NCBI GenBank assembly: GCA_001800975.1
Contig: MGWK01000029.1
Location: 1 to 49,892 of the forward strand
Length of the DNA stretch: 49,892 nucleotides
Source: Flavobacteria bacterium RIFCSPLOWO2_12_FULL_35_11
GTDB taxonomy: Bacteria; Bacteroidota; Bacteroidia; Flavobacteriales; Flavobacteriaceae
Reading direction: 5' to 3'
Position numbers and translations under genes: made by a program
Shown here: positions 15,208 to 47,195 of the stretch, piece after piece
Layout: each line of letters opens with the position of its first letter
Numbering within the stretch: the first letter of the stretch is position 1
Notes under the pieces: generated by a model
Seen by the model: the letters and a program-made list of their open reading frames with translations, nothing else
Databases searched by the model: none
What the model was told of the DNA's origin: nothing

Positions 15208-17658
15208 TTAATATAATGGTTTGTATTTTGTTGGATTTACCTCATTCATGATGCTGTAAATTGCTTCAAAAATATCTTCTTCATTTGGTTTTGAAAAATA
15301 ATCGCCATCCGTTCCGTAAGCTGCTCTGTGCGGTTTCGCCGTTAATGTCACCGGTTTGCTGTCCAAATAGCCATAAGCATTTTGTTTTTCCAGGATTTCA
15401 TTCAATAGATAGGCGGAAGCCCCTCCGGGAACATCTTCATCAATAATAATAAGCCTGTTTGTTTTTTGGATACTTTTCACCACATCTTTATTGATATCAA
15501 AAGGCAACAGACTTTGAACATCTATTAATTCAATATCAATATCAACCTGTTTTAAACCATTTACAACTTCTTCCACCAATTTTAAGGTTGAACCATAAGA
15601 AACTACGGTAATGTCAGTTCCGGTTTTAATGGTTTCAACAACACCGATGGGTGTTTTAAATTCGCCTAAATTGTTGGGGAATTTTTCTTTAAGTCGATAG
15701 CCGTTTAAATTTTCCACAATTAAAGCGGGTTCATCACATTCCAATAAAGTATTGTAAAATCCGGCGGCTTTTGTCATGTTTCTTGGAACCAAAATATTCA
15801 TTCCCCTTAACAAATGCACAATAGCGCCCATTGGAGATCCGGAATGCCAGATTCCTTCCAAACGGTGGCCACGGGTTCTTACAATTAACGGTGCTTTTTG
15901 TTTGCCAACGGTTCTGTAATGCAGCGTAGCCAAATCGTCACTCAATATTTGAATAGCGTATAATAAATAATCTAAATATTGAATTTCGGCAATTGGACGC
16001 AATCCTCTTAGCGCCATTCCTATTCCTTGTCCAATGATGGTAGCTTCCCTAATTCCGGTATCGGCCACACGAAGTTTCCCGTATTTTTCCTGAAGTCCGA
16101 CAAGACCTTGATTTACATCGCCTATATTTCCTGAATCTTCTCCAAAAATGAACAAATCATTGTATTTTGAAAATAAGAAATCAAAGTTGTCTTTTATAAT
16201 AATTCGCCCATCAACCATTTCGGCATTTGCATCATAAGTTGGTAAAACTTCTTTTACGTGGCTTACTTTTTTATCGCTTTGGCTGTATAAAAAGGAGCTA
16301 TAATTTTGTTGTTCTTTTTTTAAATAATTGACAATCCAATTTTGAAGTTGTGTTTTTTCTGCAGATTTTTCTTCTCTAACATAAACAATGGCTTTTCTGG
16401 CAGCAACTAAAAGATCTTTTCTTGAGGTGTCCAAAACAGCGGTCAAATCATTTTTTAATTTAAGGATAAAAGATTTGTTGTGACTTTTGTTCGCCAGATT
16501 TTCCAGCAATTGCATCACTTTGGCTTTTTCTTCTTTTACCGGATTTAAAAATGCATTCCAAGCGTCTCTTCTGGCTTGATTGACTTCTTTTTTTGCTTCT
16601 TTTTCAATAATGATCAATTCTTCTTCGGTTTCAACAAAGCGAAGCAAGTTATTGTTGCTGTCTTTTAATTCGAATTCAATAATCCAATCGCGCATTTTTG
16701 CGAGACAGTCGTTTTGTTTTTCCCAAATTAAGCGCTCTTTAGTTTTATAGCGTTCGTGTGAACCGGAAGTTGAATGGCCTTGCGGTTGTGTTAAATCTTT
16801 AACGTGAATTAAAACAGGCACATGTTCTTCACGGGCAATTTTTGCCGCTTTATTATAAACCGAAATCAATTGCGGATAATCCCATCCTTTTACCACGAAA
16901 ATTTCGAATCCTTCCGCAGTTTCATCACGTTGAAAACCTTTTAAGATCTCTGAAATACTTTCTTTGGTGGTTTGATATTTTGCCGGAACTGAAATACCAT
17001 AATCATCATCCCAAACACTAATAATCATTGGAACCTGCAAAACTCCTGCAGCATTTATGGTTTCAAAAAATAAGCCTTCTGAAGTGCTTGCGTTTCCTAT
17101 AGTTCCCCAGGAAATTTCATTTCCGTTGTTTGAAAATTTTGGTTTTTTTAACTCAGAAATATTACGAAACATTTTTGAGGCCTTTGCTATTCCAAGCATC
17201 CTGGGCATCTGGCTTGCTGTTGGCGAAATATCGCCGGTTGAATTGTATTGTTCGGTCAGGTTTTTAAAATGACCGTTTTCATCCAGGCTGTGGGTTGCAA
17301 AATGACCTCCCATTTGTCGGCCGCCCGACATTGGATCGGCGTTAATGTCAGGATGCGCATACAAACCTGCAAAAAATTGTTGGGGCGTTAATTCGCCAAT
17401 CGCCATCATAAAAGTTTGGTCGCGATAATAACCCGATCTAAAATCGCCTTTTTTAAAGGCTTTAGCCATGGCCAATTGCGGTACTTCTTTGCCGTCCCCA
17501 AAAATTCCAAATTTTGCCTTTCCGGTTAAAACTTCTCTACGGCCCAAGTAACTGCATTCTCTGCTTATTACAGCGATTTGGTAATCTTGCAGGACTTCTT
17601 TCTTAAATTGATTAAAAGATAATTGTTCTTGGTTGGTGGATGTAGATTTTACCTGCAT
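15208..17658 (-). CDS. Fused alpha/beta E1 component of a 2-oxoacid dehydrogenase complex
   Basis: An 816-residue fusion. Residues about 25-330 match the E1-alpha TPP-binding half (YYRDQTFMMAIGELTPQQF, then NASTSEGLFFETINAAG and SVWDDDYGIS). A charged helical linker spans about 330-465, and about 475-816 is the E1-beta half (FGEDSG, EIQYLDYLLYAIQILSDDLA, HSGSPMG). The enzyme decarboxylates a 2-oxoacid, probably branched-chain, and acylates the lipoyl group of an E2 encoded elsewhere. The usual GDG of the TPP motif is replaced by GNA. It is longer than ordinary fused E1 proteins because of the linker. It is monocistronic with a canonical promoter. Confidence 0.88.
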   Translation of the reverse strand: MQVKSTSTNQEQLSFNQFKKEVLQDYQIAVISRECSYLGRREVLTGKAKFGIFGDGKEVPQLAMAKAFKKGDFRSGYYRDQTFMMAIGELTPQQFFAGLYAHPDINADPMSGGRQMGGHFATHSLDENGHFKNLTEQYNSTGDISPTASQMPRMLGIAKASKMFRNISELKKPKFSNNGNEISWGTIGNASTSEGLFFETINAAGVLQVPMIISVWDDDYGISVPAKYQTTKESISEILKGFQRDETAEGFEIFVVKGWDYPQLISVYNKAAKIAREEHVPVLIHVKDLTQPQGHSTSGSHERYKTKERLIWEKQNDCLAKMRDWIIEFELKDSNNNLLRFVETEEELIIIEKEAKKEVNQARRDAWNAFLNPVKEEKAKVMQLLENLANKSHNKSFILKLKNDLTAVLDTSRKDLLVAARKAIVYVREEKSAEKTQLQNWIVNYLKKEQQNYSSFLYSQSDKKVSHVKEVLPTYDANAEMVDGRIIIKDNFDFLFSKYNDLFIFGEDSGNIGDVNQGLVGLQEKYGKLRVADTGIREATIIGQGIGMALRGLRPIAEIQYLDYLLYAIQILSDDLATLHYRTVGKQKAPLIVRTRGHRLEGIWHSGSPMGAIVHLLRGMNILVPRNMTKAAGFYNTLLECDEPALIVENLNGYRLKEKFPNNLGEFKTPIGVVETIKTGTDITVVSYGSTLKLVEEVVNGLKQVDIDIELIDVQSLLPFDINKDVVKSIQKTNRLIIIDEDVPGGASAYLLNEILEKQNAYGYLDSKPVTLTAKPHRAAYGTDGDYFSKPNEEDIFEAIYSIMNEVNPTKYKPLY

Positions 17659-17868: not shown

Positions 17869-20679
17869 TTAATAGAACCCCCTTTTTGCAAAATTATAAA
17901 TTTTCTTAGGATTTATGATTAACACAAACCTAATTTTAGAGGCGTAACTTGGTTGGGAAATTTCCCAGCCCAAATTGGAATGTAAAGGAAAATATACTTC
18001 TAAAATATCTTGTATGAAGTTTAATCTGACCCCATTTTCATAAGCAAAATAGACCTTTTGATTCTTGTTTTTTACAAAACCAACATCATTATACACCTCA
18101 AACCAACGCCACAAGCCAACGCTTGTGTTTATGGTTGAAAGCCATTGATTTGCATAAGCAACGGGAAGTTTCGATTTAAATCCGCCTTCATTAATGATGA
18201 TTTGTTGGCTTAAAATACCCGTAGTTTCCGATCTTCCCAAATAATCGTACTGAAATAAATAATCGGATGGCCTGTCTAAGGCAAAACTAAAGAAATCCGT
18301 TTCGGTTTTATTGGACAAAAATGCGCCTGCGAAAATTCTGAAATCAAATTGTCTGTTGGTGTCTGTCAATAACCGGTAATGCCCCGTGGCAGAAACTTTG
18401 CTGAATTTATTGGCAATCTGTATTCCTGTAGAAAATCTAAAATCATCTATAATATTTGGTTTTGCATACCCATAACTTAAATTGAACACATTGTATTTGT
18501 TGGTTTCAATGTGTTGCGTTTGTGTTGGTGACTTTTCCCGGTCAACCATAATATAGGAAGTGTGTAGCGTGCTGCTGGTAACGTCTCTCAAGCTTTTTCT
18601 TTTAAATTCAAGAAGCGCAAAGGGCGTAAAAGTAGCATAAGAAAGGTCTTCTGCATAATGAAAACTGCTTCCCGAAATTCCGGTCAAAAATCTATTGATG
18701 TTTTTATTTTCCGGCAAGTATTCATAAAGCAATGAAAAGGATCCGGAAAAGGAATTGCTTTTTGTGCCATAGGAAGGCGTCATTTTATATTGGAAACTCT
18801 TGTTCAATAATGTTTTATTGGAAATTGCCATTCCTAAAACCAATCCGTCATAATAATTGTATCGGGCTTCAGGCGTATAGAAAATTTGATTGTAATAAGG
18901 GTTTTCTATATCTTTCATAAACTTTAACTGCACCGGCCTGTTAAATAATTTTTTGTTAGTGTCTTTCCAATTGTTTCTTAAATTATATTCCGGCAAATAG
19001 AATTCATGATTTAATGAAAGTTGTTCAAAACCATTTCTTTGAATCGTAACTTTTTCTAATGAATCTATGCCAACAAGCCATTTTTTAAATTTGACTTCAT
19101 TATTTTGAATGCCATATAACTGAACAGGTGCAGTAAAATTTCGTTTATTTAAAATAGTGATTTCAAGAGAGTCGTTTTTCTTGACTATTTTTTTGATGGT
19201 ATAATCAACTTTTTTGCTGGTGTTTAAATAATCTGTTTTAAACCAGGATATGTTTTTAGGCGTATCAATTAAATTTAAAAACTTATCACCAGTGGCCTGT
19301 TTTCCGGAATATTTTTCAGAAAAATCCTTTATCGATTTTGATATTGTTTCTTCCCCCAAATAATTGTCCAAATATCTAATTCCCAAACCGGCCTTATATT
19401 TATTTACAATTTTTCTGTTGAAATTAGACAGGGAATCGGCATGCGTTGTGAGTGGCTGGTCCAGATTTTTTCGAGCTGCGAACTGATAAACAAAGGCATA
19501 TTTATCATTAAAATCAATTTTGGCCAAGTTAAAGTTCCTGATTCCCCAAAGTTTTGAAATATCGCCAATAGCTCTAACTTCCGGATAGTATGCTTCAACA
19601 TATTTAATCATTAAATAGGTTTGTAAACCATCGGCAAGCCAGGCATCTTCTCTTTGATTAAACAAAAAAACGTTGTCTATATATTTTCTGCTCAGAATTT
19701 TAAAAAGTTGAATGTCCCATTCAAAAGTATCCGTAAAAGGCTTTAAAAATGATGGCAATTGGTTAAAGCCATAAACCGGATTTTTCTCATAATCAATTTT
19801 ATTTATGAAAAGCTTTTTTTGCGGATATTTCCCCAAATAAGATTGAATAAAAGAAAGTTCCCTATTGATAATTTCGGTTTTGATGGCGGGATCCAATTTT
19901 TTAGAATCCATATTGGTCACCAGTGTAACAGGGCTTGATTTATACTCCGTAAAATCATTTTCTTTGGTGATGTTTATAGCAATATCCTGTCTGTTTTTCC
20001 CAATCAAGCGATAACTGTTAAAATTGGCCAGTGAATCAAGATAAACCGTTAAATCACTGTTTACTGAATACGCTTTGGGAACTTTTATATTTATGAAATA
20101 ATTTGTATAATCAACATACAAATCATCCATATCCAAATTATTTTGAAGCTGCCACTTTTCATTGAAAACGGCAGGTATTAAGTACCAGTAACGCAAATTA
20201 TAACCGGTTTTATTCACACCATAATTTGTAAACTTATCATTGGGTATTTTTACGGAATAAGTCGCAATAATTTTTATGGAATCCTTCGGTTTTAAGGTTT
20301 CTTTTAGATTGATTTTTAAGATATCAGGATCTTTGTCGGTAATATCCCAGGAAACTAAATCGTAATTAACCGAAATGCTGTTAATTTTGGAGCTTCCTCT
20401 ATGTTTCTCTTTGGTAAAATGAAATGTTTTTGAATAGTTTTCTATGAAACGATTGGCCAGCGGAGTATTTTTATCTTTATAGGCATTTGCCCAATTATGA
20501 AAATAAACAGTATTTAGAATACTGTCTGATTTGTTAAAAAAAATAATTTCCTGTTGGATTTTAAGCTCGTTTGACTCTGCATTTAAAACAGCAATAATGG
20601 TGGTGCTGTTTGTTTGCGAATACGTGTTATTCAAACAAAAAATACCAGTAAAAAGCGTTAAAAATATATATTTTTTCAA
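17869..20679 (-). CDS. M1-like aminopeptidase homologue lacking the zinc site, with C-terminal outer-membrane barrel-like region
   Basis: A 936-residue protein with a signal peptide (residues 1-21, MKKYIFLTLF to TYSQ). An M1-like N-terminal domain and a peptidase-like domain run to about residue 470. The position of HExxH is occupied by K327-I-L-S-R331, exactly 20 residues before W347-L-A-D-G, the counterpart of WLNEG. The second glutamate ligand is Asp350 and GxMEN is replaced by YGFNQLP. All zinc ligands are therefore lost or altered and aminopeptidase activity is not expected. From about 560 to the C-terminal RGFY, alternating aromatic/polar strands suggest an outer-membrane beta-barrel. 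It is 8 bases downstream of the LOG gene, probably in one operon with uvrA. Confidence 0.75.
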   Translation of the reverse strand: MKKYIFLTLFTGIFCLNNTYSQTNSTTIIAVLNAESNELKIQQEIIFFNKSDSILNTVYFHNWANAYKDKNTPLANRFIENYSKTFHFTKEKHRGSSKINSISVNYDLVSWDITDKDPDILKINLKETLKPKDSIKIIATYSVKIPNDKFTNYGVNKTGYNLRYWYLIPAVFNEKWQLQNNLDMDDLYVDYTNYFINIKVPKAYSVNSDLTVYLDSLANFNSYRLIGKNRQDIAINITKENDFTEYKSSPVTLVTNMDSKKLDPAIKTEIINRELSFIQSYLGKYPQKKLFINKIDYEKNPVYGFNQLPSFLKPFTDTFEWDIQLFKILSRKYIDNVFLFNQREDAWLADGLQTYLMIKYVEAYYPEVRAIGDISKLWGIRNFNLAKIDFNDKYAFVYQFAARKNLDQPLTTHADSLSNFNRKIVNKYKAGLGIRYLDNYLGEETISKSIKDFSEKYSGKQATGDKFLNLIDTPKNISWFKTDYLNTSKKVDYTIKKIVKKNDSLEITILNKRNFTAPVQLYGIQNNEVKFKKWLVGIDSLEKVTIQRNGFEQLSLNHEFYLPEYNLRNNWKDTNKKLFNRPVQLKFMKDIENPYYNQIFYTPEARYNYYDGLVLGMAISNKTLLNKSFQYKMTPSYGTKSNSFSGSFSLLYEYLPENKNINRFLTGISGSSFHYAEDLSYATFTPFALLEFKRKSLRDVTSSTLHTSYIMVDREKSPTQTQHIETNKYNVFNLSYGYAKPNIIDDFRFSTGIQIANKFSKVSATGHYRLLTDTNRQFDFRIFAGAFLSNKTETDFFSFALDRPSDYLFQYDYLGRSETTGILSQQIIINEGGFKSKLPVAYANQWLSTINTSVGLWRWFEVYNDVGFVKNKNQKVYFAYENGVRLNFIQDILEVYFPLHSNLGWEISQPSYASKIRFVLIINPKKIYNFAKRGFY

Positions 20680-20687
20680 GGGTTTAC

Positions 20688-21395
20688 TTAAAAATTAGGG
20701 CTTAAACTGTATTTTTTATAAAATGTATTTATCACTTCCAAAACTTCATCTTCGGTATCTACAATTGAAATTAAACTGAGGTCGTCCAAACCTACGGCTC
20801 CTTCTTCAATCAGCGTAGTTTTAATCCAGTCAACTAGTCCCGACCAATATTTTTTTCCAACCAATACAATAGGAAATTTACCAATTTTTTTTGTCTGAAT
20901 TAAGGTGATTGCCTCAAAAAGTTCATCCATGGTTCCAAATCCTCCCGGCATCACCACAAATCCTTGGGAATATTTAATGAACATCACTTTTCGAACAAAA
21001 AAGTAATCAAAATCCAAACTTTTATCGGAGTCGATATAAGGATTGTCAACTTGTTCAAACGGCAACTCAATATTTAAGCCAACAGAGGTTCCTTTGCCGC
21101 GTTGCGCTCCTTTATTTCCCGCTTCCATAATTCCTGGACCACCGCCAGTAACAATGCCGTACCCATGTATCGTTAAATTATACGCGATATTTTCAGCCAG
21201 TTTATAATATTCATGGTCTGTTTTTGTGCGTGCCGAACCAAAAATAGTCACGCAAGGCCCAATTTTACTGAGGCGTTCAAAACCTTCTACAAACTCTGCC
21301 ATAATTTTAAATATGGCCCAGGAATCGTTGGTTTTAATTTCATTCCACGTTTTTTGCTTGAATTTTTCCCTTATTTTTTTGTCGTCATTTGTCAT
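20688..21395 (-). CDS. LOG family protein (TIGR00730), nucleotide phosphoribohydrolase-like
   Basis: A 235-residue Rossmann-fold protein with the two LOG signatures: GGGPGIMEAGNKGA (about residues 81-94) and the catalytic PGGFGTMDELFE (about 148-159). The family hydrolyses cytokinin riboside monophosphates or, more generally in bacteria, purine nucleoside monophosphates to base plus ribose 5-phosphate. The longer N-terminal helical region (first about 45 residues) is typical of bacterial type II LOGs. It lies between uvrA and the M1-like gene on the same strand. Confidence 0.9.
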   Translation of the reverse strand: MTNDDKKIREKFKQKTWNEIKTNDSWAIFKIMAEFVEGFERLSKIGPCVTIFGSARTKTDHEYYKLAENIAYNLTIHGYGIVTGGGPGIMEAGNKGAQRGKGTSVGLNIELPFEQVDNPYIDSDKSLDFDYFFVRKVMFIKYSQGFVVMPGGFGTMDELFEAITLIQTKKIGKFPIVLVGKKYWSGLVDWIKTTLIEEGAVGLDDLSLISIVDTEDEVLEVINTFYKKYSLSPNF

Positions 21396-21458: not shown

Positions 21459-24284
21459 CTAATTTAATTCTTTTTTTAAGAATTTGGCAGTATAGCTTTT
21501 TTTATGTTGGCTTACTTCTTCAGGAGTTCCAAAACAAATTAACTGTCCGCCTTTTTTTCCGCCCTCCATTCCGATATCAATTACGTGGTCGGCAAGTTTT
21601 ACAACATCTAAATTATGCTCAATAACCAAGATGGTATTTCCCTTATTTGCCAATTTATTTAAAACTTCCATAAGCACGCGAATGTCTTCAAAATGAAGTC
21701 CGGTGGTAGGTTCATCTAAAATATAAAAAGTGTTTCCGGTATCTTTTTTAGACAATTCTGAAGCTAATTTTATTCGTTGCGCTTCGCCTCCAGATAAGGT
21801 TGTGGATTGCTGTCCCAGTTTGATATAACTTAACCCGACATCGTGAATTGTTTTAAGTTTTCGATGAATTTTAGGAATGAGTTCAAAAAATGAAGTCGCT
21901 TCTTCAATGGTCATATTTAAGACATCGGAAATTGATTTTCCTTTGTATCTAATTTCCAATGTTTCTCTGTTGAAGCGCTTTCCTTGGCAAGTTTCACATT
22001 CCACATGAACATCTGGCAGAAAGTTCATTTCTATTACGCGAACGCCGCCGCCTTCACAAGTTTCACATCTTCCGTCTTTCACGTTAAATGAAAATCGGCC
22101 AGGTTTATAACCTCTTATGGCTGCTTCGCTTGTTTTGGCGAACAAATCCCTAATTTCACTAAAAACACCGGTATATGTAGCCGGATTTGAACGTGGCGTT
22201 CTGCCAATTGGGGATTGGTCTATGGCAATTACTTTGTCTATATGCTCCAACCCTTCAATGGATTTATAAGGCATCGGTTTTTTAACGCCGTTGTAAATAT
22301 GTTCGTTTAAAATGGGGTATAAAGTTTCGTTTATTAAGGTCGATTTTCCGCTGCCCGAAACGCCGGTAACACAAATTAATTTTCCTAAAGGAAATTCAAC
22401 AGTAATATTTTTTAAATTATTGCCGGTAGCGCCTTTTAAAATTATTTTGTGTCCGTTTCCCTCCCTTCTTTTTTTAGGAACTTCAATGGATTTGGTGCCG
22501 TTTAAATAATCGGCTGTTAACGTGTGGTGTTGTTTTAGTTCTTCATAAGTTCCTTCACTCACAATTTCCCCACCGTGAATGCCCGCGCCCGGACCAATAT
22601 CGAGCACATAATCGGCATGCTGAATCATTTCTTTATCGTGTTCAACAACGATTACGGAGTTACCGATGTCGCGTAAATTCAACAGGGAATTTATTAATTT
22701 TTGGTTGTCGCGTTGGTGCAAGCCAATGCTCGGCTCATCCAAAATATAAAGCACGCCAACCAATTGCGAGCCAATTTGCGTAGCCAACCGAATGCGTTGC
22801 GCTTCGCCGCCCGACAATGATTTTGAGCTTCTGTCGAGGGTTAAATAATCCAAGCCAACATCCAATAAAAACTGAATTCTCGTTCTGATTTCTTTCAGTA
22901 TTTCGGTCGCAATTTTTATTTGTTTTTCAGTTAATTTTTCTTCAATATTGGCAAACCAATTCGCAAGTTCAGTAATGTCGAGTTGCGCCAATTCCGATAT
23001 ATTTTTATCATTGACCTTAAAGTACAAGGCTTCTTTTTTTAGCCGTTTTCCATCGCAGGTTTCGCAATTTACCTCGTCCATAAATTCATTCGCCCAACGT
23101 TTTATGGAAGTTGAATCGCTTGTATTATATTGATTTTCAATAAAATGAATAATTCCTTCAAAATCAATTTCGTAAGTTCGCGTAATTCCTGCCGTTTTTG
23201 AAATAATGTCAAATTTCTCGCTTCCGCCATTTAAAATAATGTCTAAAGCTTCGCTGGGTATTTTTGAAATTGGATCACTTAATTGAAAATGATAACGGTC
23301 GGCAATTAACTGAAGCTGTTTGAAAATCCAGCTGTTTTTTTGTTCGCCAATGGGTTTAATGCCGCCATTTTTGATGGAGATTTTCTGGTCCGGAATTATT
23401 TTTTTGATATTGACTTTATCCAATTTTCCCAATCCGCTGCAAGTTTCGCAAGCACCTTTTGGAGAATTGAAAGAGAACGAATTCGGTTCGGGATTTGGGT
23501 AGGATATTCCAGTGGTCGGACACATTAAATCGCTGCTGAAATAACGCGGATTGTTGGTTTCATGCTCCAAAATCATCACAACATTGTCACCAGCATATAA
23601 GGCTGTTGCAATGCTTTCTTCCACTCTTTTTTCTGAAGCCTCATTTACCGTTAAACGGTCTATCACAATCTCAATATCATGGGTTTTGTAACGGTCAAGG
23701 CGCATTCCTTTTGTAATTTCCAGAAGTTCTCCATCAACCCTTACACGCACAAAGCCTTGTTTTGAAATCTGTTCAAAAAGTTCTCTGTAATGCCCTTTTC
23801 TCGATTTAACGATGGGCGCCAGAATCACTATTTTTTTTTGATCAAATTCCTTTAAAATAAGTTCTTTTATTTGCACATCCGCATAACTCACCATTTTTTC
23901 ATTGGTGTTATAGGAGTATGCGTCAGCGGCTCTCGCGTATAGCAATCGCAAAAAATCGTATATTTCAGTAATGGTTCCAACGGTGGAACGCGGACTTTTA
24001 TTTGTTGTTTTTTGTTCAATGGAAATAACAGGGGAGAGGCCGTCAATTTTATCAACATCCGGTCGTTCCAATCCTCCTAAAAATTGCCTTGCATAGGCCG
24101 AAAAAGTTTCAATATATCTGCGTTGGCCTTCAGCATAAATCGTGTCAAATGCCAATGACGACTTGCCGCTGCCGCTTAAACCGGTAATTACCACCAATTT
24201 TTCTCTGGGAATACGAACATCAATATTTTTTAAATTGTGAACTCGCGCTCCCAAAACTTCAATATATTCTGTGTGTTTTGTCAT
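21459..24284 (-). CDS. uvrA: Excinuclease ABC subunit UvrA
   Basis: A 941-residue DNA damage sensor ATPase of nucleotide excision repair. There are two ABC modules: Walker A GLSGSGKSSLAFD and GVSGSGKSTLINE, and signatures SLSGGEAQRIRLA and TLSGGEAQRIKLA. Zinc-finger cysteine pairs include CETCDGKRL, CETCEGGGVR and CETCQGKRF. The start MTKHTEYIEVLGARVHNLK at 24284 is chosen because a TAACTTTG promoter element lies just upstream (24310-24303). The open frame extends 20 codons further, across that promoter, which makes the longer start impossible for this transcript. Confidence 0.97.
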   Translation of the reverse strand: MTKHTEYIEVLGARVHNLKNIDVRIPREKLVVITGLSGSGKSSLAFDTIYAEGQRRYIETFSAYARQFLGGLERPDVDKIDGLSPVISIEQKTTNKSPRSTVGTITEIYDFLRLLYARAADAYSYNTNEKMVSYADVQIKELILKEFDQKKIVILAPIVKSRKGHYRELFEQISKQGFVRVRVDGELLEITKGMRLDRYKTHDIEIVIDRLTVNEASEKRVEESIATALYAGDNVVMILEHETNNPRYFSSDLMCPTTGISYPNPEPNSFSFNSPKGACETCSGLGKLDKVNIKKIIPDQKISIKNGGIKPIGEQKNSWIFKQLQLIADRYHFQLSDPISKIPSEALDIILNGGSEKFDIISKTAGITRTYEIDFEGIIHFIENQYNTSDSTSIKRWANEFMDEVNCETCDGKRLKKEALYFKVNDKNISELAQLDITELANWFANIEEKLTEKQIKIATEILKEIRTRIQFLLDVGLDYLTLDRSSKSLSGGEAQRIRLATQIGSQLVGVLYILDEPSIGLHQRDNQKLINSLLNLRDIGNSVIVVEHDKEMIQHADYVLDIGPGAGIHGGEIVSEGTYEELKQHHTLTADYLNGTKSIEVPKKRREGNGHKIILKGATGNNLKNITVEFPLGKLICVTGVSGSGKSTLINETLYPILNEHIYNGVKKPMPYKSIEGLEHIDKVIAIDQSPIGRTPRSNPATYTGVFSEIRDLFAKTSEAAIRGYKPGRFSFNVKDGRCETCEGGGVRVIEMNFLPDVHVECETCQGKRFNRETLEIRYKGKSISDVLNMTIEEATSFFELIPKIHRKLKTIHDVGLSYIKLGQQSTTLSGGEAQRIKLASELSKKDTGNTFYILDEPTTGLHFEDIRVLMEVLNKLANKGNTILVIEHNLDVVKLADHVIDIGMEGGKKGGQLICFGTPEEVSQHKKSYTAKFLKKELN

Positions 24285-24302
24285 TGGATTTTCGGAAAGT
24301 TG

Positions 24303-24310
24303 CAAAGTTA
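24303..24310 (-). promoter_or_regulatory. -7 promoter element of uvrA
   Basis: The minus strand reads TAACTTTG followed by C, matching TAnnTTTG. The start codon at 24284 is about 12 bases after the expected transcription start, so the leader is very short. It also decides the uvrA start. Confidence 0.65.
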
Positions 24311-24389
24311 AAAAAATGTAGCTACAATTTTGGCATACAGTCACATCTTTATTTTGAAAATTAGTATATTGCGTTAAAATTTATAGTTT

Positions 24390-36700: not shown

Positions 36701-39700
36701 TTGGCAACAAAAAAAATCACCGAAAGAATTAACTTCGCATCAGCTAAATTGGTAATGGAATATCCGGATTTTTTAGATATTCAGGTAAAATCATTTCAAG
36801 ATTTTTTTCAACTAAAAACCAAAGCTGACGAAAGAAGTACCGAAGGATTATATAAAACCTTCCTCGATAACTTCCCAATTAGTGATACTCGTAACCAATT
36901 TGTGTTAGAGTTTTTGGACTACTTTGTAGATCCACCTAGATATTCAATTCAAGAATGTATCGAAAGAGGTTTGACTTATTGCGTGCCTTTAAAAGCGCGT
37001 TTAAAACTCTATTGTACTGATCCTGAGCACGAAGATTTTGAAACGATTGTGCAAGATGTTTATCTTGGCACAATTCCATATATGACACACAGCGGTACCT
37101 TTGTAATCAATGGCGCCGAAAGGGTTGTAGTTTCTCAATTGCATCGTTCTCCAGGGGTATTCTTCGGGCAGTCATTCCACGCAAATGGAACAAAATTATA
37201 TTCAGCCAGGGTAATTCCTTTTAAAGGTTCTTGGATAGAATTTGCAACTGATATCAATCAAGTAATGTATGCTTATATTGATAGAAAGAAAAAATTGCCG
37301 GTAACCACTTTGTTCAGAGCTATTGGTTATGAAAGAGATAAAGATATTTTGGAGATTTTTGATCTTGCTGAAGAAATTAAAGTTTCCAAAAGCGGACTTA
37401 AAAAATATATAGGCAGAAAACTTGCCGCACGTGTTTTAAAAACTTGGTTTGAAGATTTTGTTGATGAAGATACCGGCGAAGTAGTTTCTATTGAAAGAAA
37501 TGAAATCGTATTGGACCGTGATACCATTTTAGAAAAAGATCAAATTGAAGAAATTATTGAATCAGGTACCAAAACAATCCTGCTTCATAAAGAAGATAAT
37601 GAAATGGCCGATTATGCCATTATTCACAATACCTTACAAAAAGATCCAACAAACTCTGAAAAAGAAGCTGTTGAGCATATTTACAGACAGTTGCGTAACG
37701 CGGAACCGCCAGATTTCGAAACTGCAAAAGGTATTATTGATAAATTATTCTTCTCAGAACAACGTTACAATTTAGGTGAAGTTGGTCGTTACAGAATGAA
37801 CAAAAAGTTAGGACTGGATGTATCTGTTGATGCAAAAGTTTTAACGAAAGAAGATATTATTACCATTATCAAAAACTTGATAAAATTAGTCAATTCAAAA
37901 GCGGAAGTAGATGATATTGACCATTTATCAAACCGTCGTGTACGTACTGTTGGCGAGCAATTGGCCAGTCAGTTTGGCGTAGGTCTTTCCCGTATGGCAA
38001 GAACCATTCGCGAACGTATGAATGTACGTGATAATGAAGTATTTACACCAATTGATTTGATAAACGCCAAAACGTTGTCATCTGTCATCAATTCATTTTT
38101 TGGGACAAACCAATTGTCTCAATTTATGGACCAGACAAATCCATTGGCTGAGATTACGCACAAACGAAGATTATCGGCACTAGGACCTGGAGGTTTATCC
38201 AGAGAAAGAGCAGGATTTGAGGTTCGTGACGTTCACTTTACCCACTATGGCCGTTTATGTCCAATTGAAACTCCTGAGGGACCAAATATTGGTTTAATTT
38301 CCTCTTTGGCAGTTTTTGCAAAAGTGAATAATTTAGGATTTATTGAGACACCTTACAGAAAGGTAACCAATGGTCAGGTAAATATTGTAGATGAACCGTC
38401 TTATTTAAGTGCTGAAGAAGAAGAAGGAATGAAATTTGCCCAGTCAAATCTTCCTTTAGACAATGCAGGTAATTTTGTAAACGACAAAATAATTGTTCGT
38501 GAAGAAGCAGATTATCCGGTAGTTGACCCAAAAGTGGTGAATTATATGGATGTTGCTCCTAACCAAATCGCCTCAATATCGGCTTCTTTAATTCCATTTT
38601 TGGAGCATGATGATGCAAACCGTGCGTTGATGGGATCGAATATGATGCGTCAGGCAGTTCCTTTAATCAGTCCTGAAGCGCCAATTGTTGGTACAGGATT
38701 AGAGCGACGCGTTGCAAAAGATTCACGTATTTTAATCAATGCTGAAGGCGAAGGTACCGTTGAGTATGTTGATGCCAATACCATTAAAATTAAATATGAC
38801 AAAACTGATGAAGAGCGTATGGTTAGCTTCGACAGCGACAGCAAAACATACAATTTAATCAAGTTTAGAAAAACGAACCAAGGAACTTCAATCAACCTAA
38901 AACCTATTGTTAAAAAAGGTGACAGAGTTGAAGAAGGCCAAGTGCTTTGTGAAGGCTATGCCACACAAAACGGTGAATTGGCATTGGGAAGAAATATGAA
39001 GGTGGCTTTTATGCCTTGGAAAGGGTACAACTTTGAGGATGCGATTGTGATTTCCGAAAAAGTGGTAAAAGAAGACATTTTCACCTCTATTCACATTGAT
39101 GAATATTCATTGGAAGTTAGAGACACTAAATTAGGTGCTGAAGAATTGACAAACGACATTCCGAACGTTTCAGAAGAAGCTACAAAAGATTTGGATGAAA
39201 ATGGAATGATCCGTATTGGCGCTGAAGTAAAACCGGGAGATATTTTAATCGGTAAAATTACACCTAAAGGAGAATCTGATCCAACACCTGAAGAAAAATT
39301 ATTGAGAGCTATTTTTGGTGACAAAGCCGGTGACGTAAAAGATGCTTCGTTAAAAGCTTCTCCATCATTGCGTGGGGTTGTTATTGACAAGAAGTTATTT
39401 GAACGTGCCGTAAAAGACAAATCAAAAAGAGCAAAAGATAAAATCAGCATTACCAATTTAGAGCACAAGTATAGTGCAAAATTGGAGGATTTACGTACCG
39501 TTTTAACCGAAAAATTATTCAACTTAATCAGTGGAAAAACTTCTCAGGGAGTGATGAACGATTTGGGTGAAGAAATTCTTCAAAAAGGTAAAAAGTTTAC
39601 GTTAAAAATGTTGAATGCAGTTCCTGATTTTGCTTATTTAACTAGGGGAGTTTGGACTACAGATGACCATATTAATATGCTTGTGAATGAATTGATTCAC

Positions 39701-40516
39701 AATTATAAAATAAAAGTAAACGATTTACAAGGATCTTTACGTCGTGAGAAATTTACAGTTTCAGTAGGTGATGAATTGCCAGCAGGAATTTTAAAACTCG
39801 CCAAAATTTACATCGCTAAAAAACGTAAGTTAAAAGTGGGTGATAAAATGGCTGGACGTCACGGAAATAAAGGTATTGTTGCCCGTATTGTTCGTCAGGA
39901 AGATATGCCATTCTTAGAAGATGGAACTCCGGTTGATATCGTGTTGAACCCGCTTGGTGTGCCTTCACGTATGAATATTGGACAAATCTATGAAACAGTC
40001 CTTGGTTGGGCCGGTCAAAAACTTGGCAAAACATTTGCAACTCCAATTTTTGATGGAGCTAAAATTGACCAAATTAATCAGTTGATTGAAGATGCCGGAA
40101 TTCCAAAACATGGCCATACTTACTTATATGACGGTGGTACAGGAGAACGTTTTGACCAACCTGCAACTGTAGGCGTTATTTATATGATCAAATTAGGCCA
40201 TATGATTGATGACAAAATGCACGCTCGTTCAATTGGACCATACTCATTAATTACACAACAACCATTGGGCGGTAAAGCACAATTTGGAGGTCAGCGTTTT
40301 GGAGAGATGGAGGTTTGGGCACTTGAAGCTTATGGAGCATCAAGTACTTTACGCGAAATCTTAACAGTAAAATCTGATGATGTGTTGGGTAGGGCTAAAA
40401 CCTATGAGGCCATTGTAAAAGGTGATGAAATGCCAGAACCAGGATTACCTGAATCATTTAACGTATTAATGCACGAACTAAGAGGTCTTGGATTAGACGT
40501 TAGATTAGAGGAATAA
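36701..40516 (+). CDS. rpoB: DNA-directed RNA polymerase subunit beta
   Basis: A 1271-residue beta subunit starting with TTG at 36701 ([20 protein letters not shown]). An in-frame stop at 36686-36688 excludes an upstream start, and the next ATG (residue 19) would remove conserved sequence. The rifampicin region [11 protein letters not shown] (471-481) to [14 protein letters not shown] is wild type at the classical resistance positions. The active-site segment [20 protein letters not shown] and the C-terminal [13 protein letters not shown] are intact. It carries the usual Bacteroidota insertions. Confidence 0.98.
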
Positions 40517-40526
40517 CAAAAAAAAG

Positions 40527-40558
40527 ATAGTCAGGAGGCAATTTTGCCTTCTGGCTAT
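40527..40558 (+). terminator. rpoB-rpoC intercistronic hairpin
   Basis: ATAGTCAGGAGGCA (40527-40540) pairs with TGCCTTCTGGCTAT (40545-40558) through 14 pairs, two of them G-T, around the loop ATTT. No strong T-tract follows, so an RNA processing or stabilising structure is more likely than a terminator. Confidence 0.55.
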
Positions 40559-40602
40559 TATATATTTTACAATTTTAAATTCGAATCCATTATTAATATA
40601 TT

Positions 40603-43600
40603 ATGGCCAGAAAAACCGATAATAAATACACTGTAAAAAAATTCAATAAAATTTCTATTGGATTGGCGTCTCCCGAAGTAATTCTTGAGAAATCAAATGG
40701 AGAAGTTTTAAAACCGGAAACTATAAATTACCGAACTCACAAACCTGAAAGAGATGGATTGTTTTGTGAGCGAATTTTTGGACCAATAAAAGATTTTGAA
40801 TGTGCTTGCGGAAAGTACAAGAGAATTCGCTATAAAGGAATAGTTTGTGACCGATGTGGTGTTGAAGTAACCGAGAAAAAAGTTCGTAGAGACAGAGTAG
40901 GACACATTAATTTGGTTGTTCCAGTTGCTCATATCTGGTATTTTAGATCATTGCCTAACAAAATGGGATACCTTTTAGGTTTGCCTTCAAAAAAGTTAGA
41001 CATGATTATTTACTACGAGCGTTATGTAGTTATTCAACCTGCCGGAGCTAAAAACGCCAGTGGCGATCCATTGCAAAAAATGGATTTCTTAACGGAAGAA
41101 GAATACTTGGATATTCTTGAATCATTCCCTAATGAAAATAGATATTTAGACGATAACGACCCAGAAAAGTTCATCGCTAAAATGGGTGCCGAATGTCTAA
41201 TTGATTTATTTAACCGTATCAATTTAGATGAATTGTCTTATGAATTGCGTCATAAAGCAAACACCGAAACATCTAAACAACGTAAAACAGAAGCATTAAA
41301 AAGACTTAACGTTGTTGAGGCTTTTAGAGATGCAGGTAAAAACAGAGAAAATCGTCCTGAATGGATGATTATGAAAGTGATTCCGGTGACACCGCCAGAA
41401 TTGCGTCCGTTGGTGCCGTTGGATGGTGGTCGTTTTGCCACTTCCGATTTAAATGATTTATACCGCAGGGTTATTATCAGAAACAATCGTTTAAAAAGAT
41501 TGGTTGAAATAAAAGCGCCTGAGGTAATTTTACGTAATGAAAAACGTATGTTGCAAGAATCTGTAGATTCATTGTTTGACAACACACGTAAATCTTCAGC
41601 AGTAAAAACTGAATCAAACCGTCCGTTAAAATCATTGTCAGATTCCTTAAAAGGTAAGCAAGGACGTTTCCGTCAAAACTTACTTGGAAAACGTGTTGAT
41701 TATTCTGCACGTTCTGTAATTGTTGTCGGACCAGAATTAAAATTATTCGAATGCGGATTGCCAAAAGATATGGCAGCTGAGTTGTACAAACCATTTGTAA
41801 TCAGAAAATTGATTGAAAGAGGGATTGTAAAAACAGTGAAATCTGCAAAGAAAATTATAGATAAAAGAGAACCTGTTGTATGGGATATTTTAGAAAATGT
41901 TTTAAAAGGACATCCTGTATTGTTAAACCGAGCCCCTACCTTACACCGTTTGGGTATTCAGGCTTTTCAACCAAAATTAATTGAAGGAAAGGCAATTCAG
42001 TTACACCCATTGGTTTGTACTGCATTCAATGCCGATTTTGATGGTGACCAAATGGCAGTTCATTTACCATTAGGCCCAGAAGCCATTTTAGAATGTCAAT
42101 TGTTGATGTTAGCATCACATAATATTTTAAACCCGGCTAACGGAGCGCCAATCACGGTGCCTTCTCAAGACATGGTTTTGGGATTGTATTATATGACCAA
42201 AGAAAGAAAATCCACTCCTGAACGCAAAGTAAAAGGTGAAGGATTGACTTTTTATTCTCCTGAAGAAGTAACCATTGCATTCAACGAAAAAGCTGTTGAA
42301 CTAAATGCGGTTATTAAAGTTAGAACAAAAGATTTTAACGCGGAAGGTGAATTGGTATCACAAATAATTGAAACAACTGTCGGCAGGGTTCTATTTAATG
42401 AAGTGGTGCCGGTAAAAGCAGGTTATGTCAATGAAGTTTTAAACAAGAAAAACTTAAGAGATATTATTGGGACAATTCTGAAACTTACAGATGTGCCAAC
42501 AACCGGAAAATTCCTTGATGACATGAAGGATATGGGATACAAATTTGCATTCCGTGGCGGCTTGTCATTCAGTTTGGGAGATATTATTATCCCGCCGGAA
42601 AAACATAAAATGATTGCTGATGCAAACGAACAAGTTGACGTTATTATAGCAAACTATAATATGGGTATGTTAACAAATAAAGAACGTTACAATCAGGTAA
42701 TTGATATTTGGGGATCTACAAACAACCGTTTAACTGAACTTTCAATGAAACGTTTGCGCGAAGACCAACAAGGATTTAACTCTGTGTTTATGATGCTAGA
42801 TTCTGGTGCAAGGGGTTCTAAAGAACAAATTCGTCAGCTAACAGGTATGCGTGGATTGATGGCGAAACCTAAAAAATCATCATCCGGCGGAGGAGAAATT
42901 ATTGAAAATCCAATTTTGTCGAACTTTAAAGAAGGTTTGTCAATTCTTGAATACTTTATTTCTACGCACGGTGCACGTAAAGGTTTGGCGGATACTGCTT
43001 TAAAAACAGCCGATGCGGGTTACTTAACACGTCGTTTGGTTGATGTTTCTCAAGATGTGATTATCAATGAAGTGGATTGTGGAACTTTAAGAGGTTTATT
43101 TGTTGAACCGCTTAAAAAGAATGATGAAATTGTTGAATCGTTAAGCGAAAGACTTGATGGCCGTGTATCGTTGCATGATGTTATCGATCCAATTACTGAA
43201 GAATTATTTGTGCGTTCAGGAGAAGAAATTTCTACTGAAATTGCGAAACGCATTGAAAATTCATCACTTGATGGGGTAGAAGTACGTTCTGCTTTAACTT
43301 GTGAATCAAAAAAAGGTATTTGTGCCAAATGTTATGGGCATAGCTTATCAACAAGAAAAATGGTACAAATTGGAGAAGCAGTTGGCGTTGTTGCGGCACA
43401 GTCAATTGGGGAACCAGGTACACAGTTAACCTTGAGAACATTCCACGTTGGAGGGGTTGCAGGAAATATTTCTGAAGAAAACAGCTTAAATGCAAGACTT
43501 TCAGGAGTTGCTTCCATAGATGATTTAAAAACTGTTACAGGCAAAGACAATGATGGAAATGTTGTGAATATCGTTATTTCAAGAACATCTGAGATTAAAG

Positions 43601-44880
43601 TTATTGATGAGAAAACCGGATTGACCTTAAGTACAAACAACATTCCTTATGGTTCAACCATTTACATAAAAGACGGTGAAAAACTAAAAAGAGGTGATGT
43701 TATTTGTAAATGGGATCCATTTAACGGTGTTATTGTTTCTGAATTTGCAGGTAAAATTGAATTTGATAATGTTGAAAAAGGGGTAAATTACCTTGTAGAA
43801 ATCGACGAACAAACTGGTTTCCAGGAAAAAGTAATTATCGAGTCAAAAAGCAAAAAAACAATACCAACATTATTGTTAAAAGATAAAAATGACAATGTAC
43901 TTAGATCGTACAACTTACCTTTAGGGGCGCACTTAATCGTTGAAGACGGTGAGAAAATCCCTGCCGGTAAAGTAATTGTTAAAATCCCTCGTAAATCTGG
44001 TAAAGCCGGAGATATTACAGGAGGTTTGCCACGTGTAACCGAGTTATTTGAAGCACGTAACCCATCAAATCCAGCAGTTGTGTCGGAAATTGACGGTGTT
44101 GTTTCTTTCGGTAAAATTAAAAGAGGTAACCGTGAAATCGTTGTTGAATCTAAATTAGGAGATATCAGAAGGTATTTAATTAAACTTTCCAATCAAATCT
44201 TAGTTCAGGAAAACGATTACATTAAAGCAGGTATGCAACTTTCTGAAGGAGCAACTGCACCTGATGACATTTTAAATATTCAGGGGCCGTCAAAAGTTCA
44301 AGAATATTTGGTAAATGAAATTCAGGAGGTTTACCGTTTACAGGGCGTAAAAATTAACGACAAACATTTTGAAGTGGTTGTTCGCCAAATGATGCGTAAA
44401 GTAAAAATTATTGATTCTGGAGATACCTTATTCTTAGAAAATCAACTGGTGCATAAAAACGACTTCTTTGAAGTAAATGATGACATTTACGGATTGAAAG
44501 TGGTTGAAAATGCAGGTGATTCTGATGTTTTAAAAGAAGGACAAATTATAACTCCTCGCCAATTGCGTGACGAAAACTCCGTATTGCGCAGAGAAGACAG
44601 AAATTTGGTGGAAGCAAGAGATTCAAGACCGGCAACGGCTGAGCAAATTTTGCAAGGAATTACAAGAGCGTCATTACAAACAAAATCGTTCATTTCTGCA
44701 GCCTCATTCCAAGAAACTACTAAAGTGTTAAACGAAGCTGCGGTAAGCGGTAAAATAGATTTCTTAGAAGGATTGAAAGAAAATGTAATTGTTGGAAAAC
44801 GTATTCCTGCAGGAACAGGAATGAAACATTATGACAATGTTATTGTTGGCCCTAAAGAAGAAATGATGTCAAAACTTTAA
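40603..44880 (+). CDS. rpoC: DNA-directed RNA polymerase subunit beta'
   Basis: A 1425-residue beta' subunit. The N-terminal zinc ribbon CACGKYKR to CDRCGVEV, the catalytic Mg-binding NADFDGDQM at 476-484, the bridge helix region, and the second zinc site [13 protein letters not shown] are all present. It starts 86 bases after rpoB, with a hairpin between, and is followed after 2 bases by the DUF3467 gene. Confidence 0.98.
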
Positions 44881-45392: not shown

Positions 45393-47195
45393 ATGAAAAT
45401 ATCCTATTTTTTACTGATTGTGATTACAATTATAAGCACTTCCGCAAACGCACAAAAAGACACCGTTAAATTGAAAGAAGTTGAAGTCACTTCAAACAGA
45501 ATATCCCTGCCTTTTTCCAAAACTTCACGCACCATCACTATTTTAAGCCAGGAGGATCTCGCCAAATCGGCAGCAACCAATTTGGCCGATGTGCTGCAAA
45601 ATGTTGCAGGTGCTGATATCAGAAGGAGGGGAATTGACGGAATGCAATCAGATTTATATATCCGAGGAGGAAATTTCGACCAAACTTTGTTGTTGATTGA
45701 TGGTGTAAAAATGGATGATGCACAAACTGGGCATCATACCATGAATGGCATTTTATCTTTAGAAAACATTGAAAGAATTGAAATTATAAAAGGGCCTGCC
45801 GCGCGTATTTACGGACAAAATGCTTTTACCGGCGCCATAAATATTGTGACAAAGGCGGTAACGGAAAATGCCGCAATCGTAAATTTAAATTATGGCTCTT
45901 ACAACAATAAAAAAGGCGAAGTGTCTTTGGGGCACAAATTTAACCAGGGCGATGTTTTGGCTACGGTGAGTCATCAGGAATCTGATGGATACCGATACAA
46001 TACCGATTTTAAAAATAGCGCTGCATTTTTTAAATCCAATTTCAAAAATTTCAGTTTAATCACTTCGTTTGCGCAACGTAAATTTGGGGCAAACGGATTT
46101 TATGCGAGTCCGGCTTATAAAGACCAATATGAAGAAACCCAAACAAGTTTGGTGGCACTTTCATCAAATTATTCGAGCAATAATGTAATTATTAAACCAA
46201 GAATTTACTGGAGAAGAAATCAGGATTTGTATTTGTTTATTAGAGAAAATCCTTCCTATTACAGAAATTTACACATTTCAAATAAAATGGGCGCGGAAAC
46301 GAATGTTGTTTTTAATTCGAGCTTGGGAAAAACTGGCGTCGGACTTGATATTTCAAGAATATTTTTGGTGAGTAACAATTTAGGCGATCACCAAAGAACG
46401 GCCATAACAGGTTTTATAGAACACCGATTTGAATTGTTGAATGAAAATCTTGATATTACGCCAGGTGTTGCCGTTAGTTCTTATTCGGATTTTAACACGA
46501 AAGCTTTTCCCGGATTGGATGTTGGTTACCGCATTTCAGAAAGAGTTAAGCTATACGGAAATATTGGCTATACCTATCGTGTGCCTACTTTTACCGATTT
46601 GTATTATGTGGGTCCAACCACCAAGGGAAATGCCGATTTGGAAGCAGAATCTGCTTTGGCAGAAGAGCTGGGAATTAAATTTACAACTGCCAACTTTCAA
46701 ATGGAGGCGGCTATTTTTAACAGAAAATCTGATAATTTAATTGACTGGACCAAAGACAATGAAACAGATAAATGGGAAGCCAGAAACTTTAGTGAAGTGG
46801 TGGCTAAAGGTTTGGAAACAACCATAAATTATCAGTTTAAATTGGGTAAACACCAACAAAAATTTAATTTGGGTTATAGTTTTATTGAGGATGTCATCAA
46901 AGACAATCAAGTGCAATTCACCCAATATTCCATCAATAGTATCAAACACCAGCTTACTTCAGGTATTTCCACTAAATTTTGCCCAATTTTCAGTCAGCAT
47001 ATAACCTACAGATATGTGGAAAGAACCAACGGGCAACATTACAATGTGGTAGATGCCAAAATAAGTGCGATGCTTAAAACTCACATGGAATTTTTCATAG
47101 CAGCCAACAATATTTTTAATGCAGAATACACAGAAACCAATTTGGTGCCGATGCCAAAAGGAAATTTGATGGCGGGGTTTACTTTCAAACTTTAA
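45393..47195 (+). CDS. TonB-dependent outer-membrane receptor (BtuB-like size)
   Basis: A 600-residue receptor with a signal peptide (residues 1-20, cleaved after SANA) and a TonB-box region near VKLKEVEVTSNR. The plug domain (about 40-150) includes DVLQNVAGADIRRRG and LLLIDGVKMDD, and a 22-strand barrel follows, ending in GFTFKL. At 600 residues and without a CarboxypepD or SusC N-terminal domain it resembles small-ligand receptors (cobalamin, siderophore, metal) rather than glycan importers. No SusD partner follows. The ligand cannot be named. Confidence 0.9.
   Translation: MKISYFLLIVITIISTSANAQKDTVKLKEVEVTSNRISLPFSKTSRTITILSQEDLAKSAATNLADVLQNVAGADIRRRGIDGMQSDLYIRGGNFDQTLLLIDGVKMDDAQTGHHTMNGILSLENIERIEIIKGPAARIYGQNAFTGAINIVTKAVTENAAIVNLNYGSYNNKKGEVSLGHKFNQGDVLATVSHQESDGYRYNTDFKNSAAFFKSNFKNFSLITSFAQRKFGANGFYASPAYKDQYEETQTSLVALSSNYSSNNVIIKPRIYWRRNQDLYLFIRENPSYYRNLHISNKMGAETNVVFNSSLGKTGVGLDISRIFLVSNNLGDHQRTAITGFIEHRFELLNENLDITPGVAVSSYSDFNTKAFPGLDVGYRISERVKLYGNIGYTYRVPTFTDLYYVGPTTKGNADLEAESALAEELGIKFTTANFQMEAAIFNRKSDNLIDWTKDNETDKWEARNFSEVVAKGLETTINYQFKLGKHQQKFNLGYSFIEDVIKDNQVQFTQYSINSIKHQLTSGISTKFCPIFSQHITYRYVERTNGQHYNVVDAKISAMLKTHMEFFIAANNIFNAEYTETNLVPMPKGNLMAGFTFKL

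Follow-up and report, generated by a model that had tools for sequence, protein, structure and literature searches.

What does a bacterium do with a peptidase fold that has lost its active site and is joined, in one chain, to a predicted outer-membrane barrel? The question is raised by a gene on the minus strand, at positions 17869..20679, of a 49,892-nucleotide stretch of DNA, hereafter the window (contig MGWK01000029.1, positions 1 to 49,892), from Flavobacteria bacterium RIFCSPLOWO2_12_FULL_35_11, a genome of 3.56 Mb in 98 contigs. The product, here called the M1-barrel protein, lacks the M1 active site, and its barrel is predicted to be Omp85-like. Our favoured explanation, to which we assign a probability of roughly 0.48, is that the dead M1 fold serves as the periplasmic binding domain of an Omp85-like assembly, insertion or translocation factor. 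The gene is laid out as follows, with domain boundaries taken from a structure model, combined for the two M1 domains with PDB alignment.

17869..20679, minus strand: whole gene, 936 amino acids, TTG start; dead M1-like domain and Omp85-like barrel
20617..20679, minus strand: probable signal peptide, residues 1–21, followed by Gln22 (from the sequence)
19900..20616, minus strand: M1 N-terminal beta domain, residues 22–260 (model and PDB alignment)
19210..19899, minus strand: M1 catalytic-like helical domain, residues 261–490 (model and PDB alignment)
19753..19773, minus strand: GxMEN-type motif position, residues 303–309, reading YGFNQLP
19687..19701, minus strand: HExxH position, residues 327–331, reading KILSR
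19627..19641, minus strand: third zinc-ligand position, residues 347–351, reading WLADG (D350 for E)
18940..19209, minus strand: beta-rich linker domain, residues 491–580 (model)
17920..18891, minus strand: predicted 16-stranded Omp85-like barrel, residues 597–920 (model)
18145..18309, minus strand: long loop joining strand 11 to strand 12 (Omp85 L6 position), with Arg816, residues 791–845
18079..18093, minus strand: strand 13, YNDVG at the place of the Omp85 (F/G)xDxG motif, residues 863–867
17875..17910, minus strand: C-terminal helix, residues 924–935 (model)

The N-terminal half is predicted to adopt the M1 fold, both by the structure model and by PDB alignment, and its two motif helices are spaced as in M1 aminopeptidases. 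A preliminary description, made from the sequence, had placed KILSR at the HExxH position with the spacing to WLADG preserved, and this placement holds: the register is set by 19 intact relatives, which fix the alignment position and rule out a misreading. The zinc site, together with its third Glu ligand, is missing from the window protein, with KILSR and D350 in its place. The GxMEN-type Glu and the catalytic Tyr are further motifs of M1 enzymes; at their positions, taken from the intact relatives, the window protein carries Q307 and K427. To survey close relatives we used a set of 81 rows, the window protein and the best 80 of 580 confirmed stretches, these 80 being by title from Flavobacteriaceae genera or from flavobacterial or Bacteroidia metagenome-assembled genomes (MAGs). 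None of the 81 has the first His of HExxH and none the catalytic Glu; Lys occupies the first place in 80. The earlier claim of a retained M1 fold with a lost zinc site stands.

A more diverse set of 86 rows divides into 67 dead and 19 intact proteins, and among the dead rows the GxMEN-type Glu is kept in a single one and the catalytic Tyr in none. Four other families of the order supply five of the intact rows (L063, L067, L069, L070 and L071), and the remaining 14 belong to further families of the class; these 14 are all the readable ones out of 15 such matches in 296 genomes of the phylum, the fifteenth, with a broken frame, being excluded. Orthologues with an intact HExxH, which the preliminary description had set against its own claim, thus exist among deep relatives, and one of them (L063, in region L157) stands beside the same neighbour gene as in the window. 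The intact deep relatives date the loss without undoing it, as none of the 81 flavobacterial rows has the first His. Two sequences differ from the common dead pattern. L060 (245-3151, KEFLH...WETEG), counted as dead, has Lys for the first zinc His with the Glu, the second His and the third Glu in place. In L064 (2-2905, DEIVQ...WLIEG) both His are missing, while Glu fills the catalytic place and that of the third ligand. To judge from its residues, L064 may be an intermediate stage of loss.

Phylogeny points to where the loss took place. Trees were built from 62 and 61 of the 86 rows, thinned within genus. The rows dropped from the analysis are L072, of which a contig end leaves only half, L185, whose frame is broken by a stop that was not read through, and L006 and L007 (the window itself). 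In the quick tree of 61 rows, calculated without L073 and without the active-site columns, the 42 dead rows make up one side of a branch with a Shimodaira–Hasegawa-like approximate likelihood ratio (SH-aLRT) support of 100; in the first tree, which includes L073, the support is 84. An independent loss in the family of L064, L065, L066 and L068 was considered and set aside, as the test against a grouping with the intact L063 gives p 0.023 and so rejects it, a value not far below 0.05 and obtained for a group that was named after the tree had been seen. Since all 14 rows read outside the order are intact, the simplest reading is a single loss inside Flavobacteriales, and we conclude that the active site was probably lost once, within that order. 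Descent from an active M1 peptidase already joined to the same barrel is part of the favoured explanation.

A dead twin standing beside an active copy is not what we find. Each of the 50 matching genomes among the 296 of the phylum draw has one barrel-profile match, with mostly only six first-look candidates scored per genome, and the five other M1-type proteins of the host genome (L001–L005; open frames of 541–813 amino acids) keep HExxH. Two of these, L004 and L005, lie about 2 kb apart.

The preliminary description had also assigned the C-terminal 350 or so residues to an outer-membrane beta-barrel and proposed structure prediction of the full protein as a check. Both the M1 fold and the barrel are predicted, from alignments using 66 of the 81 full rows and 78 of the 81 barrel rows. 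The predicted barrel, residues 597–920, has 16 strands and an extended L6-like loop between strands 11 and 12. The strand-13 motif reads YxDxG in the window, with a Tyr that lies outside the stated (F/G)xDxG; the broader form [FYG]xDxG is present in 61 of the 67 dead rows and in 13 of the 19 intact ones. A Pfam scan of 19 barrel rows returned no Omp85 model, and DUF5686 (PF18939) matched one of them weakly (E 0.064). As no profile match is significant, the link to Omp85 rests on the predicted structure, the topology and two motif positions. Within the barrel match of L185, a copy from a genome of another family (G135), we observe an in-frame TAG.

Which parts of the protein are held constant differs between the intact and dead forms. 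We compared regional identities in pairs matched by overall identity, with intact and dead rows aligned apart (a joint alignment agrees) and with L073 and the shortened L184 omitted. In the 30–35% bin, the mean identities of 61 intact and 296 dead pairs are, respectively, 0.47 and 0.29 for the N-terminal domain, 0.40 and 0.30 for the core, 0.61 and 0.33 for residues 317–360, 0.21 and 0.36 for the barrel, and 0.28 and 0.53 for the loop; the 25–30% and 35–40% bins show the same direction. Conservation across the 81 close rows peaks in the loop, which has a mean entropy of 0.92 bits (26 of 55 columns below 0.5 bit), against 1.41 bits for residues 846–936 and 1.64 for the core. The old active-site helix, residues 317–337, is kept no better than its surroundings (1.62 bits versus 1.64 for the rest of the core; 2 of 21 columns below 0.5 bit). 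Within the genus, the ratio of non-synonymous to synonymous substitution rates (dN/dS) for the whole gene is 0.09–0.12 in the seven pairs, out of nine, for which it is computable, and for the loop it is at most 0.08 in all nine. The loop is the firm part of the constraint shift; taken as a whole, the barrel is better kept only when set against the intact relatives.

The gene is widespread and its surroundings are conserved. Thirty of the 50 matching genomes of the phylum draw belong to Flavobacteriaceae, and no genome of this family appears among the listed non-matches, which are ordered by kinship; in a nearer sample, 57 of 61 Flavobacteriaceae genomes carry the gene, the host's own included. 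The closest genus-named relatives are from Lutibacter (82%, 66% and 66% identity), and one flavobacterial MAG reaches 85%. The conserved neighbours in the window are these:

21459..24344, minus strand: uvrA-like excinuclease ATPase, a name assigned from reading the sequence
20688..21395, minus strand: upstream neighbour, lysine-decarboxylase-like, which we take to be LOG
15208..17658, minus strand: 2-oxoacid dehydrogenase E1, downstream neighbour, a single frame with both an E1_dh and a transketolase domain

Of 80 loci, 56 show the full order uvrA, LOG, M1-barrel gene, E1 dehydrogenase, and several others are cut by contig ends. In the 14 deeper regions, the E1 gene directly adjoins in four (L157, L163, L168 and L170), lies one open reading frame away in L162 and is partial and about 5.6 kb off in L165, and LOG adjoins in L169. 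As L157 contains the intact L063, intact and dead forms are found beside the same E1 gene. The TTG start of the M1-barrel gene, present in all ten printed genus copies, falls eight bases past the LOG stop (window 20677-20690), which may indicate weak or coupled translation. The gene area also contains two short inverted repeats. Further along the window are an ordinary rpoB-rpoC pair (36701-44880) and a TonB-dependent receptor (45393-47195).

Computation shows the predicted folds, the active-site loss, the conserved gene order, the broad occurrence and the shift of constraint; export, placement in membrane and periplasm, and all that follows on substrate and action are our inference. The probable signal peptide, followed by a Gln at position 22 in 65 of 67 dead rows, would direct export, and the Omp85-like barrel would lie in the outer membrane. 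An even number of strands would leave both ends in the periplasm, so that the dead M1 fold would occupy the position that POTRA domains have in other Omp85 proteins. With the active site gone, constraint shifted from the peptidase half towards the barrel, above all to the lid-like loop. The dead M1 domain would capture a peptide, protein or partner, leave it uncut and hand it over to the barrel; the whole protein would then serve assembly, insertion or translocation, with the M1 domain feeding or gating the barrel. The interpretation given in the preliminary description is partly supported, and the binding or assembly role that it put forward would agree with the Omp85-like barrel and with the shift of constraint to the loop.

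Several observations weigh against this explanation. In Foldseek the TM-scores (query) of the listed matches are only 0.41–0.51, and in hhalign the barrel has no significant match to flavobacterial BamA, TamL or DUF5686 (probability at most 2.9%), the control barrel PorP scoring equally high (2.5 and 5.4%); the same set-up, of six barrel families, connects BamA with TamL at 88%. The (V/I)RG(Y/F) motif is absent from the tip of L6, where GRSE has only the Arg in common, and even this Arg is gone in one family of the order (L058, L059, L062 and L186, reading GESA or GQSA), which keeps the strand-13 Asp. In the 40–50% bin (10 intact and 462 dead pairs) the two sets do not differ in core or barrel, and the shift is confined to the helix (0.61 intact versus 0.40 dead) and the loop (0.53 intact versus 0.71 dead); as pairs share ancestors and are not independent, the identity comparison carries no p-value. 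The neighbours are housekeeping genes and no pointer to function, and seven of the 14 deeper regions have none of them. L073 (228-2906), a dead row with a branch length of 2.83, falls weakly beside intact rows in the first tree and is possibly an independent loss. Finally, searches including the barrel profile found no copy in four of the 61 family genomes (G004, G027, G053 and G060) or in six other rechecked genomes of the order. Three of the four are fragmented drafts, and the fourth, G060, consists of one contig and is 99% complete; the gene is therefore near-universal in Flavobacteriaceae, not universal, and not strictly essential to the family. The outer membrane of G060 could reveal what the M1-barrel protein is needed for.

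The main rival holds that the barrel is a plain anchor, through which nothing passes and by which nothing is inserted, with the dead M1 domain serving as a scaffold or receptor in the periplasm. An anchor predicts a variable barrel, as seen in the intact relatives (0.21 against 0.40 in the core at 30–35% overall identity) and in the 81 close dead rows, where strands 581–790 vary more than the core (1.82 versus 1.64 bits); an anchor should not need a strongly conserved loop, however, and the loop is by far the best-kept part of the dead proteins. We hold this rival to be unlikely, though worth serious consideration. That the barrel instead brings its own M1-like domain out onto the surface of the cell is suggested by the union of an Omp85-like barrel with an enzyme-derived N-terminal domain, and the patatin-type Omp85 protein PlpD is a described precedent (PMC4104836). 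PlpD has a POTRA domain, whereas the Pfam scan found no such family here, and the best-kept element of the dead proteins is the barrel loop rather than the would-be passenger, which makes self-secretion improbable.

A different catalytic activity, built on newly conserved residues such as Lys327, could draw on the near-invariance of that Lys in the flavobacterial rows, but over all dead rows it is kept in only 57 of 67, and the helix that bears it is no better conserved than the rest of the core; we consider such an activity very improbable. A decaying gene retained by chance might be suspected from the lost active site and the four genomes in which no copy was found. The frame open throughout, the low dN/dS, the presence in nearly all family genomes and the conserved gene order contradict a pseudogene, and decay has next to no chance of being the answer.

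Similar to the M1 aminopeptidases (tricorn factor F3, ERAP1/2, IRAP, LTA4H and Escherichia coli PepN) in its predicted N-terminal fold and the spacing of its motif helices, the M1-barrel protein departs from them in lacking HExxH, the third Glu, the GxMEN-type Glu and the catalytic Tyr, and in adding a predicted outer-membrane barrel. With Omp85 proteins (TamA, BamA, Sam50 and FhaC) it shares 16 predicted strands and a strand 11–12 loop with a conserved Arg, and on strand 13 it has YxDxG at the motif position, but no POTRA domain is detected (the Pfam scan of the window protein found no POTRA family, and its N-terminal region is M1-like), and (V/I)RG(Y/F) and a significant profile match are likewise missing. 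PlpD and the 'Metallo' group, as far as the available text of the 2014 survey describes them (PMC4104836), also have an enzyme-derived domain ahead of an Omp85-type barrel, but theirs is patatin or PF00149, not M1; the groups named in that text are patatin, PF00149, WD40 and lipoprotein, with no M1 group. TamL of Flavobacterium johnsoniae, from the same phylum and with an Omp85-type barrel, differs in being a lipoprotein with three POTRA domains, and the part of that paper at hand names TamL, TamL2 and TamA (PMC12045153); the strand-13 motif is FVDAG or FADAG in all five flavobacterial TamL-type rows printed. The BAM complex of F. johnsoniae, from the same family and with an Omp85 core, comprises BamA, D, G, H, M and P, for which the accessible portions of the paper give no M1-like description, and the word peptidase is absent from its main text (PMC12611786). 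DUF5686, despite its one weak match, has no significant hhalign match. The protein of PMC10281475 is, from the part available, TonB-type and irrelevant here. No Pfam or NCBIfam model scores above cut-off with the window protein (two NCBIfam rows lie far below), PDB sequence searches with it, the dead alignment and the barrel profile return no match, and the accessible part of the open PMC literature yields no description of an M1-barrel protein.

These results suggest that an old enzyme was recycled as the binding domain of an outer-membrane machine. A wider version, in which an Omp85-like machine is near-universal in Flavobacteriaceae, a retired aminopeptidase took over the substrate-binding job of POTRA and the active Bacteroidia forms are peptidases on the same pore, is a tentative proposal that we think less likely than not. 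For the M1-barrel family, enzyme loss can be mapped onto a phylogeny; extant intact and dead proteins adjoin one and the same neighbouring gene, and the move of constraint from the enzyme half to the pore half and its loop is measurable. The outer-membrane assembly machinery of Flavobacteriaceae has recently been shown to be heavily remodelled (PMC12611786), and a near-family-wide Omp85-like protein, unnamed in the accessible parts of the 2014 survey and the BAM and TamL papers, would supply a missing piece of it.
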